Positions 32,047 to 40,837 of a DNA stretch of 41,858 nucleotides are shown piece by piece. Numbering within the stretch: position 1 is the stretch's first letter; each line of letters starts with the position of its first letter. Made by a program: the position numbers and the translations under genes. The stretch comes from Candidatus Puniceispirillum sp. GTDB lineage: Bacteria > Pseudomonadota > Alphaproteobacteria > Puniceispirillales > Puniceispirillaceae. The DNA lies in the NCBI GenBank assembly GCA_028383305.1, contig JAOEVD010000020.1, positions 1 through 41,858 on the forward strand. Reading direction: 5' to 3'. The notes beneath the pieces were generated by a model. The model had not been told where the DNA came from, made no database searches, and saw only the letters and a list, made by a program, of their open reading frames with translations.

Positions 32047-32853
32047 CTAGCCATTGCGTTCAAGCATGACATTGCCACGGGTGCGCGTCGCGGCATGATA
32101 GCCATTGGCCAATAGCCAGCTCAGAATATCGCGTTCCCATTGTTCGTTAATGCCATCTTCCATCACAATTAATTTCGGATATTGCGCTTTGGCAATATTT
32201 TCGAAATAGGGAAAAAGGGCGCGATCTTCCATACCTTCAATATCAATCTTGATCACATCGGCGCGGGCAATATCATTTATTTCCAAGATTTCAACAAGCG
32301 GTAAAACCTCAACATCAATATGCGTTTTGCCAACGCGCTGATTGACGATTGAGCTGCTGCCAAAATCATTATCTGAAATGGTCAGATGCGCGATGCCTTT
32401 TGTGGCTCCGATGGCAACATCATGAACGGTAATTTTTGACTGCAAATCATTGAGCGCAATATTGTCGCGCAGCCGCGCCAGAACGGGTGGATTTGGTTCA
32501 ATTGCGATGACCTTGCCAGCACTCATCAGCGCAACATTCAACGCGTAATATCCAATATTGGATCCAATATCGACAAAAACGCCGCCATTGGTCAAATGAC
32601 GCTTGATCAGCGCTAATTCGGCGCCTTCACGCTGTTTTGCACTAAACATGATTTTGGATTCGATGGTGTTTTGGCGCGGTTGAAGCCGCAATTTCAAATT
32701 CTGGTAAATCAGATCAACAGGCTTGTCGCCATTGATCCGGTTCCAAAGCTGCGAGAACATCAATTTTAACCGGCCGCGCCCAAGCCCCATTTTTGCCAGC
32801 CCAAGGATAAAGCGGCGCACACCTGTCGGCGCGAAAGTTCCAAATTGTTGCAA
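32047..32853 (-). CDS. FkbM-family methyltransferase
   Basis: A 268-residue class I SAM methyltransferase with GGVFVDIGSNIGYYALNVAL (motif I), VIAIEPNPPVLARLRDNIALN, and ADVIKIDIEGMEDRALF typical of FkbM. These often methylate sugars or other glycan parts. It is the last clearly host-like gene before the AT-rich region begins. Confidence 0.85.
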   Translation of the reverse strand: MQQFGTFAPTGVRRFILGLAKMGLGRGRLKLMFSQLWNRINGDKPVDLIYQNLKLRLQPRQNTIESKIMFSAKQREGAELALIKRHLTNGGVFVDIGSNIGYYALNVALMSAGKVIAIEPNPPVLARLRDNIALNDLQSKITVHDVAIGATKGIAHLTISDNDFGSSSIVNQRVGKTHIDVEVLPLVEILEINDIARADVIKIDIEGMEDRALFPYFENIAKAQYPKLIVMEDGINEQWERDILSWLLANGYHAATRTRGNVMLERNG

Positions 32854-32884: not shown

Positions 32885-33106
32885 TTGAAATCCTTTAAAC
32901 CTAACCTGATCATCTGTTTGATCCAAGAAGATTATGATGCCGCAAAGCCTGCCCGCGAAATGGGCGAGGCGCATGCTGTCCTATGCAATGATCTTACTAG
33001 TGATGACTGGTCTGACCCACGCTCGACTTCATCGGGAGTCACCGCGGGTCACAAAGCATTGTTGTGTGAATTGTTTTTTGGGGATAACGGTGCTGGCGGA
33101 GGGTGA
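32885..33106 (+). other. Possible truncated gene at the left edge of the acquired segment
   Basis: A 73-codon frame from a TTG (MKSFKPNLIICLIQEDYDAA...) has host-like codon use and a protein-like composition for about 60 codons and ends in NGAGGG and a stop formed by the 13-bp direct repeat at 33090. It may be the 5' part of a host gene cut by integration. No family recognised and no good RBS, so it may equally be chance. Confidence 0.3.
33090..33102 (+). repeat. Direct repeat, left copy (possible attachment site)
   Basis: GTGCTGGCGGAGG, identical to 37021-37033. Read on the minus strand it is CCTCCGCCAGCAC, which resembles the 3' end of a serine-type tRNA (acceptor, G, CCA), a common integration target; no tRNA gene is present here. 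Confidence 0.6.
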
Positions 33107-33133
33107 TATTTCTCCGTGTAAGCACCGTATTCG

Positions 33134-33244
33134 TCACATAATCGAAGCTATGCCTAGAATCACATTCGTAACTTTACTCGTCAATGCACTGTTTTGGTCT
33201 ACCCTGTGGTCTACCCAATAGAAATTTTCTGGTAATGGAAAGAA
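33134..33244 (+). repeat. Left inverted repeat (111 bp)
   Basis: Its reverse complement matches 36899-37009 with about 9-10 differences; bases 33169-33216 match perfectly over 48 bp. It contains GGTCTACCC twice (33196 and 33208), 12 bp apart, like paired protein-binding sites. Confidence 0.9.
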
Positions 33245-33280: not shown

Positions 33281-34792
33281 GTGCCAGAATTATCCTGTAA
33301 TGTTTGGATTGTTATGACCGTTAGAGATTACCAACATTCAAGGCCTTTAGATGTTCATCGATGGTCAGATCACCCCGAAGTTAATAGCTTCGTTAATGCA
33401 GTGTTTGATCAGTTCTTAAAGAAAAAAATCAAAGAAAACACAACGATCAAAAAGAAGCATCTCAAGCTGGTTCTTCTTGATCTTTACGTTACTTGGTTGA
33501 ATGACCCAGATTTGAACATTGCAGTTCATATGACACAGTCTGCCTACAGTGATGGAACTGTCTTTAACAAAGGTAAATCCAGATACAATGAATTGAATAT
33601 CAAGTTAAGTTTGATAGACATCGTTCATCGACTTCGAGATGTGCGCTTGATTGGCTATAAAGAGGGTTGGCAAGATGCTGGCGGTCGGGGCTTTGTTACT
33701 CGTATCTGGCCCACTGAAAAATTGATAACGATGTTTGAGAATGCCGCATTTGGCGATTTTGACATCGGCTATTCTGATGACAGGGAAACCATCATCCTTC
33801 GTGATGAAAACAAAAATGATGTCGAGTATGAAGATAAGACCCACATCAAACAGATGCGTTTGCTCGTTCAGGCTTATAACAAGCTTTTAGAAAAGACTTT
33901 CATAGACATCCAGTCTGTCGATAAGCCAGCACGTATCGAACTTCCAGCAAAGAAAGAGCGGCGATTTAAAAACAAGCCTGTCTTTGTGAATATCACACAC
34001 CATGACAAGTTCGTCAGACGCATCTTCAATAATAAGACATTTTCAGATGGTGGCAGGTTCTATGGTGGCTGGTGGCAGCGCATAGACAGCAAGTTCCGTA
34101 AACACATCCGGATGAATAATTCACCAACAGTAGAAATAGACTACTCCGCACTGCACGTCATTCTTGCTTACTCGGAAGCTGGCATTGATTACTGGAAGAT
34201 AACTAACAAGGATCCGTATGACTTGCCTGTCGAGGGTGTGAATAATCCAGAACATTACCGTGACATCACAAAGCTATTCTTTTTGCTGTCCTTCAATGCC
34301 TCAGATGAACAAGCCTTATACAAAGCATTTCGGTCTGAACTAAACTACAGGGAATATCCATATAGTTTTCCAGATGATGTGCTGTCAGAACTGCTTGATA
34401 CCGTAAAAGAACATCACCCAGACATCAGCCACACGATATGCAGTGGTGCTGGGTTAAGGCTTATGAATATTGATAGCCGTATATGTGATTATATCATTGC
34501 TGATTTTGTCAGAACAAGCACACCTATCCTGACTGTGCATGACAGCTTCATCGTGCCTTTTGGTGAGGAAGATAGGCTTAATCAGCTGATGAAAGAAGCC
34601 TTTGAAGATGTAACCAACAAAGTTGGTATCGAAGTAAAGTTCAATCAGAACTTAACCAAGACACAGCTATATGTTCATGGCGCGCAGGATAGAGATTGGC
34701 TTATGGATATGTTCCAATCACTTTTTAAAGGTAATCCCACGAATGGGTATCAAAGACGGCTAACCAGACATCGGGAATATTTTGGGCAATGA
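33281..34792 (+). CDS. Compact family A / T7-like single-subunit polymerase-fold protein
   Basis: A 503-residue protein (GTG at 33281; ATG at 33314 is an alternative). The N-terminal 240 residues are charged and unassigned. Then the polymerase motifs occur in order: T/DxxGR-like S255-D-G-G-R259 in SDGGRFYGGWW; motif A VEIDYSALH with Asp287; motif B R327-DIT-K331-LFFLLSFNASDE, which matches the spacing of T7 RNA polymerase R-x3-K-x7-YG but with Asn339 for Tyr; motif C ILTVHDSFIVP with His420-Asp421, like HDSF of T7 polymerase and VHDE of DNA polymerase I. It is far shorter than either and lacks an exonuclease domain. RNA or DNA product, and template, cannot be told. The fold call is inference from motifs. 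Confidence 0.7.
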   Translation: MPELSCNVWIVMTVRDYQHSRPLDVHRWSDHPEVNSFVNAVFDQFLKKKIKENTTIKKKHLKLVLLDLYVTWLNDPDLNIAVHMTQSAYSDGTVFNKGKSRYNELNIKLSLIDIVHRLRDVRLIGYKEGWQDAGGRGFVTRIWPTEKLITMFENAAFGDFDIGYSDDRETIILRDENKNDVEYEDKTHIKQMRLLVQAYNKLLEKTFIDIQSVDKPARIELPAKKERRFKNKPVFVNITHHDKFVRRIFNNKTFSDGGRFYGGWWQRIDSKFRKHIRMNNSPTVEIDYSALHVILAYSEAGIDYWKITNKDPYDLPVEGVNNPEHYRDITKLFFLLSFNASDEQALYKAFRSELNYREYPYSFPDDVLSELLDTVKEHHPDISHTICSGAGLRLMNIDSRICDYIIADFVRTSTPILTVHDSFIVPFGEEDRLNQLMKEAFEDVTNKVGIEVKFNQNLTKTQLYVHGAQDRDWLMDMFQSLFKGNPTNGYQRRLTRHREYFGQ

Positions 34793-34962
34793 TTAAGATA
34801 ATCATTATATCCATATTTGCTGTTGCACTAGTAATGTTCGCAATGCGCTTAATGCCAAAGCTGCGTTTCTTTACTCAACGGCTATTGCAAAACCCATTCA
34901 TACGAGCAATCCTGTTTAGAGGATTATGGCGTTTGATTAAGCTGCTGATATTTAGAAGATAA
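34789..34962 (+). CDS. 57-aa basic membrane peptide coupled to the polymerase-fold gene
   Basis: The ATG at 34789 overlaps the polymerase-fold gene's TGA (ATGA), so translation is coupled. The peptide has an N-terminal hydrophobic helix (IIIISIFAVALVMFAMRLM) and a strongly basic, partly hydrophobic C-terminus (ILFRGLWRLIKLLIFRR), which would lie against the membrane or bind nucleic acid. No family recognised. Confidence 0.65.
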   Translation: MIKIIIISIFAVALVMFAMRLMPKLRFFTQRLLQNPFIRAILFRGLWRLIKLLIFRR

Positions 34963-35052
34963 AAACCCTCAAAACGGTTAGCGTGTATGGGTTATCATCA
35001 TTTATGGCGCTTACCTTTTCTTTGCGCTTATAGAAAACGGAGGGTAATGAGC

Positions 35053-35460
35053 ATGCAATCACAATTAAAGCGAGTTGTTTATGTTTCCGAGAAGACTGAT
35101 GCCTCTGACACCACTTTGAAAGGTATTATTACTTCCTCACAAAAGAACAATCCAGAAGAAGGTGTAACTGGATGCTTAATATCTGGAAGTAACTCTTTTC
35201 TTCAACTTCTAGAGGGACCCTCAGATTTTATAGATACACTGTATTCAAAAATTAGCAAAGACAACAGGCATGAGAATGTTATGACGCTTTGTGAAGAAAA
35301 AATTGATGAGCGTCTCTTCTTTTCGTGGTCAATGAAATTGGCTCCATTTGAGAATATGGAGTGGTCCAAAGAGGATTTTAACTCCGGAAATTTTTTAAAT
35401 ATCACCAGTGAAGAAGCCTTAAATGTGTTTGTTAGATTAAATGAGTACACACGAAAATAG
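35053..35460 (+). CDS. BLUF-domain blue-light photoreceptor (single domain)
   Basis: The 135-residue protein is a complete BLUF flavin-binding domain with a short helical tail. Residues matching the AppA photocycle set are present: Tyr10 in VVYVS, Asn33 in KNNPEEGVTG, Gln51 in SFLQLLEG, and Trp92/Met94 in SWSM; DNRHENV is also typical. It binds FAD and senses blue light; the output partner is not attached, so it must act by protein-protein contact. The ATG at 35053 has GGAGGG eight bases upstream; ATGs at 35047 and 34987 are less likely. Confidence 0.9.
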   Translation: MQSQLKRVVYVSEKTDASDTTLKGIITSSQKNNPEEGVTGCLISGSNSFLQLLEGPSDFIDTLYSKISKDNRHENVMTLCEEKIDERLFFSWSMKLAPFENMEWSKEDFNSGNFLNITSEEALNVFVRLNEYTRK

Positions 35461-35565: not shown

Positions 35566-36477
35566 TTGTCGTCACGTTCTTGGTCTCTGCTTCTAAGCCT
35601 TGCTTTTATATGGGGTGCATCATTTTACTTTATTGAGATTGGGTTAATCTATCTGGACCCCTTTTGGCTTGTAAGTGTTCGGCTTTTATTTGGCGCTTTG
35701 CCATTAGCTTTGTGGCTATTATTTCAAGAAAAAACTCTTCCAATTAAATTACGTTTTTGGACTTCTGTTATGATAATGGGTGTCCTCAACAACTTTTTAC
35801 CTTTCAACTTTATAGCCTTTGGCCAGTTGTATGTAACTGGGGGAATGGCTTCTATTGTTAATGCCAACACCGCATTCATGGGTGTAATTGTTTCTGGTCT
35901 TTTTTTGTCTGGAGAGCCAGCAACGTGGAACAGGATTGTTGGTGTGATGATTGGGATCACAGGAGTTGCTATAGCAATTGGAGTTGCACCTATGTTACCT
36001 GCGGCGGATGCCAACGATTTATTATTAGGCAGTTTGGCAATTATTGTAGCTACAGTAGCTTATGCGTTTGCGGGTGTTTGGGGGAAAATAAAATTAGCTG
36101 AATACTCACCAACTCAAAGTGCAGTAGGCATGCTTATATGTTCCTCAGTTATTTCAGTTTTATGCAGCTTTTATATCTCTGGGACACCAAGTCTAACGAT
36201 TACAAATCACCCGTTTGACCTGATAAAGGTGGTTTTCGGATTAGGTGTATTAGGAACTGCACTGGCTTACCCGTTGTATTTCAAAATACTAGAAGTAGCT
36301 GGGTCATCCAATTTGATGCTTGTTACAATAATAGTTCCGGTATTTGCGATAATTCTTGACGCCATACTTTTGGATCAATTTGTTACGGGGTATGATTTAT
36401 TTGGCTTCGCCTTAGTGGCTATCGGTCTATTTATTATGGATGGGCGATTAAATCATAATCTCTTGAGAAAGGAATGA
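35566..36477 (+). CDS. EamA/DMT-family permease (AT-rich, acquired)
   Basis: A 303-residue membrane protein with ten helices in two EamA repeats: LLLSLAFIWGASFYFIEIGL at the start, NANTAFMGVIVSGLFLSGE, and NLMLVTIIVPVFAIILDAILL near the end. The start is TTG at 35566 with GGAAAG upstream. Its codon use is AT-rich, unlike the EamA gene at 21176, which supports transfer. Export substrate unknown. Confidence 0.85.
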   Translation: MSSRSWSLLLSLAFIWGASFYFIEIGLIYLDPFWLVSVRLLFGALPLALWLLFQEKTLPIKLRFWTSVMIMGVLNNFLPFNFIAFGQLYVTGGMASIVNANTAFMGVIVSGLFLSGEPATWNRIVGVMIGITGVAIAIGVAPMLPAADANDLLLGSLAIIVATVAYAFAGVWGKIKLAEYSPTQSAVGMLICSSVISVLCSFYISGTPSLTITNHPFDLIKVVFGLGVLGTALAYPLYFKILEVAGSSNLMLVTIIVPVFAIILDAILLDQFVTGYDLFGFALVAIGLFIMDGRLNHNLLRKE

Positions 36478-36898
36478 CATTCTCAGACAATCAAAAGCCC
36501 CCGAAAAACACATAACCTACCCACCCCAACTAACTCACACAGAGCCCATAGTAATGCATAGGTATCCCCCCCTCCCATGGACTCACTAAAACCCGAAACC
36601 CTATCAGTGACTCTGTATGGCTCATTAAAATGGTTAACAGCTTTTCCACCTAATCTGTTCAACACCCCATGAACATATAACCTTCACACCCTCTATGGCT
36701 CATGCCTGTGGGGCAGGTAAGTGATGATAGATACATGTCTTATGAAGATTGTTAAGGCAGTCTAGGTGATACAGATAAGTGTTATTCAGGGTTTGGATGA
36801 ATATCACCTACATACCCACTTACCCTGTACTCAATAGAAACTCAGATATCACTTAGCTGGTCACTTACTCTTTATTGATAACGATAAGCATATGAACC

Positions 36899-37009
36899 TT
36901 CTTTCCATTACCCGAAGATTTCTAGTGGGTAGACCACAGGGTAGACCAAAACAGTGCATTGACGAGTAAAGTTAGGTATGTGATTCTAGTCATAGCTCTG
37001 GTTATGTGA
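36899..37009 (-). repeat. Right inverted repeat (111 bp)
   Basis: Reverse complement of 33134-33244 with a perfect 48-bp core (36927-36974). It contains GGGTAGACC twice (36927 and 36939), 12 bp apart. Confidence 0.9.
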
Positions 37010-37020
37010 TGGGGAGAATT

Positions 37021-37033
37021 GTGCTGGCGGAGG
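37021..37033 (+). repeat. Direct repeat, right copy (possible attachment site)
   Basis: GTGCTGGCGGAGG, identical to 33090-33102. It is followed by ACTCGAATAG; on the minus strand TTCGAGTCCTCCGCCA looks like a shortened tRNA T-loop and acceptor end, but the stems do not fold. Confidence 0.6.
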
Positions 37034-39775: not shown

Positions 39776-40837
39776 GGCAAAGTCTTACCCCGAAACAATA
39801 GATGGCCAAGCAAGTTTCCTATTGAAAAAACCCCAGCACCAAAGCCACACCTTTTTAAGACAACAAACAAATCTATACTTGTTAACTTCGGGCTTCCTTG
39901 GACTAGGATTTACTTAGATTTTAGTGGCCTTTGGTTACTCTGGTCTTGTCTGTTTGATAATGGGGTAGGAGGTGTAGGTTCAAAACCTTCATTCTACATA
40001 ACCATTGTTCTATTGAACCTATAGTGTACTCCTACACCCCATACACCTTTGGCTAATGACTCTGATGGCCTATAAAATCTCGAGCCTTAGGTGCAGTCTT
40101 GATTGTTAATCATGGTTGTTATCAACTACGACACCTTCTCCTTACTGCCTATAGTCAGGCAGGGGTGAGCCGGGGTACACTAGTACGCATAAGAACACCT
40201 TCTTAAAGTTACCTTAGGTTCCCTTTAAGACGACCCTTATGTGTTTGCTATGAGTAATAATCATAATGGTTACCACCTAAGACCACCATCGAAGCTGAAG
40301 GTGACCCGGGTGTACTAGAAACCGTAAGAGGAGACTAAGGTACTAAGGTACTAAGGTACTAAGATACTAAAATACTAAGATACTAAGATACTCAGATACT
40401 AAAATACTTAGATACTAAGGTACTAAAGGTTACCGCAGTAACTAACATGACTAACACCTTAGTAAGAACCTTAACTAAGGACATTATAGTTACCTATAGT
40501 TACTATAGGGGGGAGATGATGATGATGATGTCGTCTTTTTCGTCTTAATCGAGGTCGTCTGACACTGGTTAACCAAAGGTGCTGAGGTCAGTGTTTTCTA
40601 AATCGCGATTCAAGACTCACTGAAGCCTCTTTAGGGGGTGTTTGCTAGGCAAGTATGTCTCGACCATTTAACCCCGCTCAGTGACTCTCAAATCGCCATT
40701 AAACGGCATCCTGGATTGTGGGATTGGGTGTATTGTCGCTGACGTCTAATCATCCAAGTCGACTAAGGAATAAGAACCACATTTTCGTATAAAAGTCAAA
40801 CTCTTATTACAATAATCATCTGACTATTTAGTCAGGC
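39776..40837. other. 1.06-kb non-coding, repeat-rich region
   Basis: No gene is apparent. The stretch is dense in related short words (CTAAGGT, ACCTTAG, GGTTACC, TATAGTTAC) and holds the 8-bp array at 40337-40424 and an imperfect copy pair of about 35 bp (near 40163 and 40299, both GGTGA.CCGGG..CTAG...TAAGA). Such a region next to a recombinase gene could be an attachment or replication-control region; this is inference. Confidence 0.55.
40337..40424. repeat. 8-bp tandem repeat, 11 copies
   Basis: AAGGTACT and close variants (AAGATACT, AAAATACT, CAGATACT, TAGATACT) follow one another without gaps for 88 bp, in the non-coding region. Confidence 0.95.

Follow-up and report, generated by a model that had tools for sequence, protein, structure and literature searches.

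A compact, divergent relative of family A polymerases as a candidate replication gene of small tRNA-targeting integrative elements

We describe a compact, divergent protein of the polymerase superfamily which, on balance, we believe to be the replication gene of small elements that insert at the 3' ends of tRNA genes by means of a tyrosine integrase. The gene lies in a stretch of DNA of 41,858 bases, called the window below, which is an entire contig (C13) of a genome that is 84% complete, and in which the GC content drops from ~53% to ~40% around the part with the polymerase gene. The gene was found in a single copy in this genome, and its many relatives beside integrases suggest small elements equipped with a DNA-copying enzyme of their own.

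Results

Reading frame and selection

The closest relatives of the gene come from a Proteobacteria MAG (91% identity), a Candidatus Puniceispirillum MAG (86%) and a SAR116 single-cell genome (82%). The original prediction took the coding sequence to be 33281-34792 on the forward strand, with a GTG start and 503 residues. The frame is indeed open and encodes all of the residues named there, but the length probably did not hold. Because the open frame of the 91% relative (L002) begins two codons ahead of the ATG that matches M12, and that of the 82% relative (L003) does likewise, the GTG start is probably wrong and the ATG at 33314, which gives 492 residues, is probably the best start. Counted from this ATG, dN/dS was 0.15 against L002 and 0.08 against both L003 and L004, with dS exceeding 1 in the latter two comparisons. 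The ORF is therefore a real protein under purifying selection, and a spurious ORF is ruled out by these ratios. A plain chromosomal PolA was likewise rejected, as the genome's own PolA sits on contig C15. The features of the locus are collected in Table 1.

Table 1. Features of the polymerase gene and its surroundings (positions in the window unless a locus is named)
Feature	Position	Strand	Remarks
24-nt direct repeat, candidate att core, left	33079..33102	.	88% to 37010-37033
111-nt inverted repeat, left arm, att-like, with GGTCTACCC repeats	33134..33244	+	
Divergent family A-like polymerase (predicted)	33314..34792	+	492 aa from ATG; PHROG 4756, E 1.8e-51
G258-R259, putative counterpart of the DNA polymerase I TGR motif	34052..34057	+	R 57/59 rows; aligned to GRLSS of PolA
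Motif A, Asp287 (E-x-D-Y/F-S)	34139..34141	+	D 59/59
Motif B, R327-x3-K331	34259..34273	+	R 56/58, K 56/58; aligned to PolA R-x3-K
Motif C, His420-Asp421 (VHDSF)	34538..34543	+	H 53/58, D 57/58
57-aa membrane peptide	34789..34962	+	start overlaps polymerase stop (ATGA)
Cargo, BLUF blue-light sensor	34987..35460	+	PF04940, E 7.8e-28
Cargo, EamA transporter	35566..36477	+	PF00892, E 4.2e-32
Conserved non-coding region, candidate cis-acting (origin or att)	36480..36900	.	74% to L004 over 483 nt
111-nt inverted repeat, right arm	36899..37009	-	92% complementary
24-nt direct repeat, candidate att core, right	37010..37033	.	adjoins right arm
Tyrosine integrase, 5' end lost at contig end	40838..41857	-	PF00589, E 1.8e-19
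Degraded copies	L025:1330-2694, L027:973-2337, L028:1468-2832, L029:1468-2832		

Conserved motifs

Conservation was read from an alignment of 59 rows, made up of 48 homologue rows (from 58 homologue ORFs, after removal of the window's copy and of 10 near-duplicates or fragments) and 11 rows from phages or viral contigs. Seven of the 358 columns filled in at least 50 of the 59 rows are at least 95% invariant, namely N200, R259, R273, D287, R327, K331 and D421, and five of these (R259, D287, R327, K331 and D421) are among the seven residues picked out beforehand, a hypergeometric probability of ~9e-9 that, with the conservation itself, rules out chance motifs. Asp287 and Asp421, on whose conservation the original prediction had been staked, are kept across the family (Table 1).

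Other parts of the motifs needed revision or could be extended. The serine at position 255, which had been counted as a motif residue, is not conserved (D in 19, E in 8 and S in 7 of the 48 homologue rows), and the actual motif is G257-G258-R259, the G258-R259 site of which we take to be that of Arg668 in E. coli DNA polymerase I. Downstream of GGR, Q266 (44/59) and P269 (34/59) recur at a spacing shorter than that from GR to Q-N-I-P in PolA. The residue after the motif A Asp, at position 288, is Y in 37 and F in 16 of the 59 rows, and position 292, the site of the steric-gate Glu in DNA polymerase I, is H in 35 and N in 16. The Asn reported in place of the motif B Tyr turned out to be a family-wide feature (N339 in 43 of 58 rows, Q in 11), and position 335, an aromatic site of family A motif B, is N in 25 and L in 24 of 58. 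With S422 in 50 and F423 in 44 of 58 rows, the motif C region is HDSF-like. The mixed family A/T7 label given to the protein was thus apt, as the protein resembles DNA polymerase I on its motif A side and comes nearer to T7 RNA polymerase at motif C.

Profile comparisons and database searches

In profile-profile comparisons, whose E-values refer to one comparison each, the whole family scored 33.1 against 20 PolA proteins (E 0.0032, 204 columns), 28.9 against 50 PolA proteins (E 0.013), 38.8 against these 50 with four phage DNA polymerases added (E 7.6e-4, 202 columns), and 25.4 against the four phage enzymes alone (E 0.045, 37 columns). Against single-subunit RNA polymerases (ssRNAPs) the scores were 38.6 for a set of four (E 0.001) and 41.5 for a set of eight (E 5.3e-4, 59 columns). 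Among the controls, integrases scored 16.9, and 40 column shuffles for each set reached maxima of 25.1 for the 50-PolA set, taken without the phage enzymes, and 23.0 for the eight-ssRNAP set. The palm half alone matched the ssRNAPs at motif C (E 1.6e-4, 58 columns), PolA (E 0.0032) and the phage DNA polymerases (E 0.0071, 20 columns); the N-terminal half alone matched none of the four polymerase sets (scores of 11.5-15.9, none below E 0.17). GR, QNIP, D-Y-S, motif B and VHD fell in order and in register with DNA polymerase I, and in motif B the match to PolA was exact, R-to-R and K-to-K, in one alignment and had a one-residue slip at the Arg in another. Since the scores are modest yet above the controls, the relation to the polymerase superfamily appears visible but modest; together with the conservation of the catalytic residues, the excess over the shuffles supports the family A/ssRNAP relation that had been proposed.

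Among established families, PHROG 4756 ('unknown function') was matched by all 35 members of a diverse alignment. The window protein had no match in Pfam, and no Pfam or NCBIfam model describes the family; for the 35 members, Pfam/NCBIfam gave stray single-member matches (best E 0.0094 and 0.045), and with a cut-off of E 1 neither PF00476 nor PF00940 was matched. Searches of the PDB by sequence and by profile gave no polymerase match. Two weak matches were to annotated polymerases, one of the window protein to PHROG 2573 'DNA polymerase' (E 0.047) and one of a single member of the 35 to PHROG 2051 'RNA polymerase' (E 0.0064). Literature searches on tycheposons, pipolins, phage satellites, VEIMEs, SAR116 islands, the PHROG itself, polymerases in mobile elements and family A polymerases in integrative elements listed no paper whose title or abstract opening names the family.

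Distribution and phage copies

By tblastn, relatives were present in 183 of 50,697 phage records, at 209 places, and in 2 of 72,556 plasmid records. The phage records comprise 115 from Rheinheimera (all with host strain BAL341), 44 from Vibrio, 14 from Aeromonas and 10 others; a scan of viral contigs with one phage protein as query gave no relative. Among bacteria, and with the window's genome included throughout, the gene is carried by 28 of 385 genomes of the class (26 of the 314 of good quality) and by 22 of 61 genomes of the bacterial family, partly as fragments only. A profile search of a phylum sample found it in 24 of 398 genomes, 23 of them in the window's class.

According to their annotation, Vibrio phages 1.121.O and qdvp001 carry the gene among small genes on the strand opposite to the structural genes, and eugene 12A10 has, by similarity, the same opposite-strand setting as 1.121.O. 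When five phage loci were clustered, an antitoxin-like HTH gene lay just upstream in three and a related helicase downstream in three; two of the phage HTH genes are annotated 'plasmid antitoxin with HTH domain'. As the qdvp001 record, read on either side of 50,001-76,088, also annotates a DNA polymerase, a primase-helicase and an RNase H, the gene is not the sole replicase of that phage. In Rheinheimera phage Barba19A, the record annotates a macro-domain protein near the polymerase gene (L075:8403-8906).

Setting in integrative elements

When 9-15 kb was read at each of 20 bacterial polymerase loci, 11 of them proved to have a tyrosine integrase; among 20 control windows of 14 kb, taken from 16 of the loci's 18 genomes, one did (Fisher p 0.0012). 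The integrase model for this count had been built from the integrases of the tested loci, the window's included. The independent Pfam model PF00589 provides a fairer control: by this count at least 13 of 23 genomes have an integrase no more than 9 kb from the polymerase gene, where 1.28 were expected, with distances read by hand. Nine of the 20 loci showed no integrase over the stretch read, and three of these belong to genomes that have one 6-8 kb away. Ten of the 11 integrase-bearing loci have a tRNA gene no more than 150 bp upstream of the integrase, and the integrase and polymerase gene are together enclosed by a repeat of the tRNA 3' end (17 to at least 40 nt) in 8 of 12 cases, as read from coordinates. 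Repeats of at least 40 nt occurred at distances of 6.6, 10.4 and 13.2 kb, one of 31 nt at 14.3 kb, and shorter ones of 17-20 nt at 6.9, 7.2, 9.2 and 10.1 kb; of the four cases with no such repeat, three offered less than 8 kb to search. Since integrase, adjoining tRNA gene and repeated tRNA end recur, the gene is often part of tRNA-targeting integrative elements.

Neighbouring genes otherwise differ between loci. The trees of polymerase and integrase agree only weakly over 13 pairs (Mantel r 0.23, p 0.039), so the two have often been re-paired, and co-evolution was dropped as proof of one fixed polymerase-integrase unit. Several single loci held further genes of note. At L066:3087-8835 a DNA methyltransferase, recognised by eye, lies between two polymerase genes with an integrase adjoining, and a bacterial element encodes a macro-domain protein (PF01661) near the polymerase gene (L097:3940-4482). 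Two tRNA-Gly polymerase elements have in common an OGFr_N-domain protein (PF04664; L078:9652-10098 and L095:10293-10742). At L097:1189-9383 an 18-nt tRNA-end repeat lies between two integrases, perhaps marking tandem elements at tRNA-Thr.

In two genomes, G265 and G079, an RNase HI gene within 250 bp adjoins the polymerase gene in the same orientation, giving the genome two RNase HI genes in all. These are the genomes in which RNase HI had already been noticed by BLAST clustering (2 of 20 bacterial loci); the four others that we asked have one RNase HI gene each. This extra RNase HI favours RNA-primed DNA synthesis. Apart from these two, no other replication families were found among 13 scanned proteins of the relatives' loci.

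The window's own copy

The terminal repeats that had been noticed around the window's gene are confirmed as a 111-nt inverted repeat (Table 1), each arm of which carries two GGTCTACC sites. The 24-nt direct repeats seem, from their sequence, to resemble a tRNA 3' end; ARAGORN found no tRNA genes in the window. The window's integrase clusters by BLAST (links at E 1e-4) with the integrases of the homologue loci. The polymerase gene lies between the att-like inverted repeats with the integrase 6 kb off, at the contig end, and since the order at L078 (the closest relative) is tRNA-Gly, integrase, polymerase gene, the window's copy of the element looks rearranged. The setting first described for the gene was refined, in that its relatives place it in tRNA-targeting integrative elements with a tyrosine integrase, which points to element replication.

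The conserved non-coding region that precedes the right arm has seven more matches on five other contigs of the same genome (C52, C53, C39, C18 and C3); no polymerase gene was found on these contigs, which possibly hold non-autonomous elements. The match on C18 lies beyond a tRNA-Thr gene and an integrase-like ORF. Ahead of the integrase, at 40331-40434, about ten tandem 8-bp units (ACTAAGGT/ACTAAGAT) form a non-coding array of candidate iterons.

The membrane peptide to which the polymerase had been said to be coupled is cationic, has a single TM segment and is common to two distant polymerase clades in one bacterial family. Among 13 loci of the window's bacterial family, six, with the window's counted, have a like peptide after the polymerase gene, and the same simple ORF search found none at other loci. 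The coupling was seen in this one family and is not supported as a general part of the system. Partial copies of the peptide occur on C39 and C52. A 95-aa ORF upstream (32934-33221) was discarded as a partner, its C-terminal part being the att-like repeat read as protein.

A degraded chromosomal clade

Four genomes of one alphaproteobacterial family (f9, genomes of 1.4 Mb) carry a 455-aa copy at one fixed locus (Table 1), next to what by eye are a folD-like and a cyclic-nucleotide-binding gene; no integrase was present in the one such locus read widely. K331 and H420 are lost in all four of these copies and R327 in three, and D287 and D421 are kept. In the tree, the two f9 copies sampled group beside an ordinary copy (L013) at moderate support (85/77), with a warning about their unusual composition. 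The f9 copies are an apparent domestication, and since the residues were lost where mobility was lost, they fit a catalytic role on the elements.

Discussion

Proposed role

Taken together, these observations lead us to favour, with some confidence though far from complete, a compact and divergent superfamily polymerase that serves as the replication gene of small integrative elements, which use a tyrosine integrase and target tRNA 3' ends. We infer the protein's fold, its activity, its choice of dNTPs, the source of its primer, its recognition of an origin and its replication role. The predicted architecture is an N-terminal half peculiar to the family, perhaps DNA-binding, followed by a C-terminal palm and fingers, in which D287 and D421 would be the metal ligands and R327 and K331 would bind the incoming nucleotide. 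In such a cycle the integrase would excise the element as a circle, the polymerase would recognise an element-borne region and extend an RNA primer or transcript, RNase H (element-encoded in some cases) would remove the RNA, and the copies would re-integrate or move with a helper. Against this reading weigh the modest profile scores, the replaced steric-gate Glu and motif B aromatics, the weak agreement of the two trees, the nine loci that showed no integrase over the stretch read, and the annotated replication genes that qdvp001 has besides this one.

More tentatively, and with doubts outweighing confidence, one may imagine a new class of self-synthesizing elements with a family A-like replicase, in which a protein of ~490 residues recognises the origin with its N-terminal half and copies DNA with its C-terminal half, RNase HI helping. 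Islands that have the cis region but no polymerase may then be driven by autonomous copies, the gene in large marine phages may be a passenger replicon, and a streamlined bacterial lineage may have domesticated a catalytically dead copy.

If the replication role is correct, a family labelled 'hypothetical' under phage matches (183 records) would gain a name and a testable activity, a replication route for small marine genomic islands would suggest itself, and a compact natural polymerase would stand between DNA polymerase I and T7 RNA polymerase. A family A branch would also join the polymerase-encoding integrative elements, of which family B ones have been described (PMC7385651).

Alternatives

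It was not unreasonable to consider that the gene is protective cargo, acting against phages or incoming DNA and merely riding on integrative elements and phages. Its neighbours in L007 and L068 include restriction-type methyltransferase and helicase genes, and in L066 what looks by eye like a DNA cytosine methyltransferase; antitoxin-like HTH genes precede it in three of the five phage loci described above, and some phages have it at more than one place. Furthermore, loss of the primase-polymerase of an ICE is reported to have had no effect on replication of the element (PMC7693054). On the other hand, the neighbours vary where integrase and tRNA recur, and PADLOC gave no match to the window protein, to which that search refers, so that a known defence gene was rejected and the defence role raised in the original prediction was not borne out. 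PADLOC did match an FkbM-type methyltransferase gene of the window (32047-32853) to mad2 (E 1.2e-7) and a LysR gene weakly to CARF/Csa3, which we take for shared methyltransferase and HTH domains. Protective cargo is, in our estimate, unlikely.

An element- or phage-specific ssRNAP that transcribes the element's genes is a poor prospect too. In its motif C region the family comes closest to T7 RNA polymerase, it lacks the steric-gate Glu of family A, and there is the lone match to PHROG 2051; set against these, motif A reads D-Y/F after a Glu and not D-G-S as in ssRNAPs, the Q-x-x-P that follows GGR resembles that of DNA polymerase I, none of the 35 members matched PF00940, and the extra RNase HI gene of two genomes speaks for DNA synthesis.

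We give little credence to a polymerase fold kept for a non-catalytic job such as DNA binding or recombination directionality; the f9 clade stays at one locus despite having lost K331, H420 and mostly R327, but elsewhere in the family catalytic residues are rarely lost, and some of the exceptions are fragments. Least credible is a reverse transcriptase-like enzyme of an element with an RNA stage and an RNase H partner, for although an extra RNase HI adjoins the gene in two genomes and relatives of DNA polymerase I can copy RNA, BLAST clustering showed RNase HI at just 2 of the 20 bacterial loci, and an integrase acting at tRNA sites, with the repeated tRNA ends, already accounts for movement as DNA.

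Comparison with known systems

With family A DNA polymerases (DNA polymerase I, PF00476) the family shares GR, D-Y-S, R-x3-K and V-H-D and, less clearly, Q-x-I-P, and the catalytic Asp of motifs A and C is present. It differs in having no PF00476 match, in a motif C that reads HDS where DNA polymerase I has HDE, in His or Asn for the steric-gate Glu (position 292, which we take to be Glu710 of DNA polymerase I), in Leu/Asn and Asn/Gln at the aromatic positions of motif B (335 and 339, presumably Phe762 and Tyr766), and in a length of ~490 residues, of which the N-terminal half is without a match in any polymerase set. Because these are defining features, family A membership should not be assigned, family A-like though the motifs look. 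With T7-like ssRNAPs (PF00940) it shares the motif C HDSF region and the preceding helix. It lacks a PF00940 match, the motif A D-G-S and the motif B Tyr of ssRNAPs, and it is shorter (T7 RNA polymerase has 883 residues); a plain T7-like RNA polymerase was rejected, as motifs A and B do not fit in the 59-row alignment.

PHROG 4756, which gathers proteins of Rheinheimera, Vibrio, Aeromonas and other phages, is one and the same protein family, as all 35 members match it, and differs in its label, which makes no polymerase assignment.

Tycheposons, said to have been originally described by Hackl et al. in 2023, resemble the elements of the relatives, which span 6.6-14.3 kb by their tRNA-end repeats. 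Both have a tRNA gene followed by a tyrosine recombinase, an order seen here at nearly all integrase-bearing loci, and transporter-type cargo (PMC10872708). PMC10872708 does not use the word polymerase.

Pipolins, as described in PMC7385651, are elements with a piPolB polymerase, a tyrosine recombinase, att direct repeats at tRNA genes and variable cargo. An element-borne polymerase, a tyrosine recombinase, tRNA att repeats and variable cargo are likewise found here, the tRNA repeats in relatives, and the window itself shows only att-like repeats and a cut integrase. The differences lie in the polymerase, which is family A-like and not a primer-independent PolB (PMC7385651), and in the span of 6.6-14.3 kb noted above. 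By this analogy, the best reading of the family would be as a family A counterpart of the pipolins.
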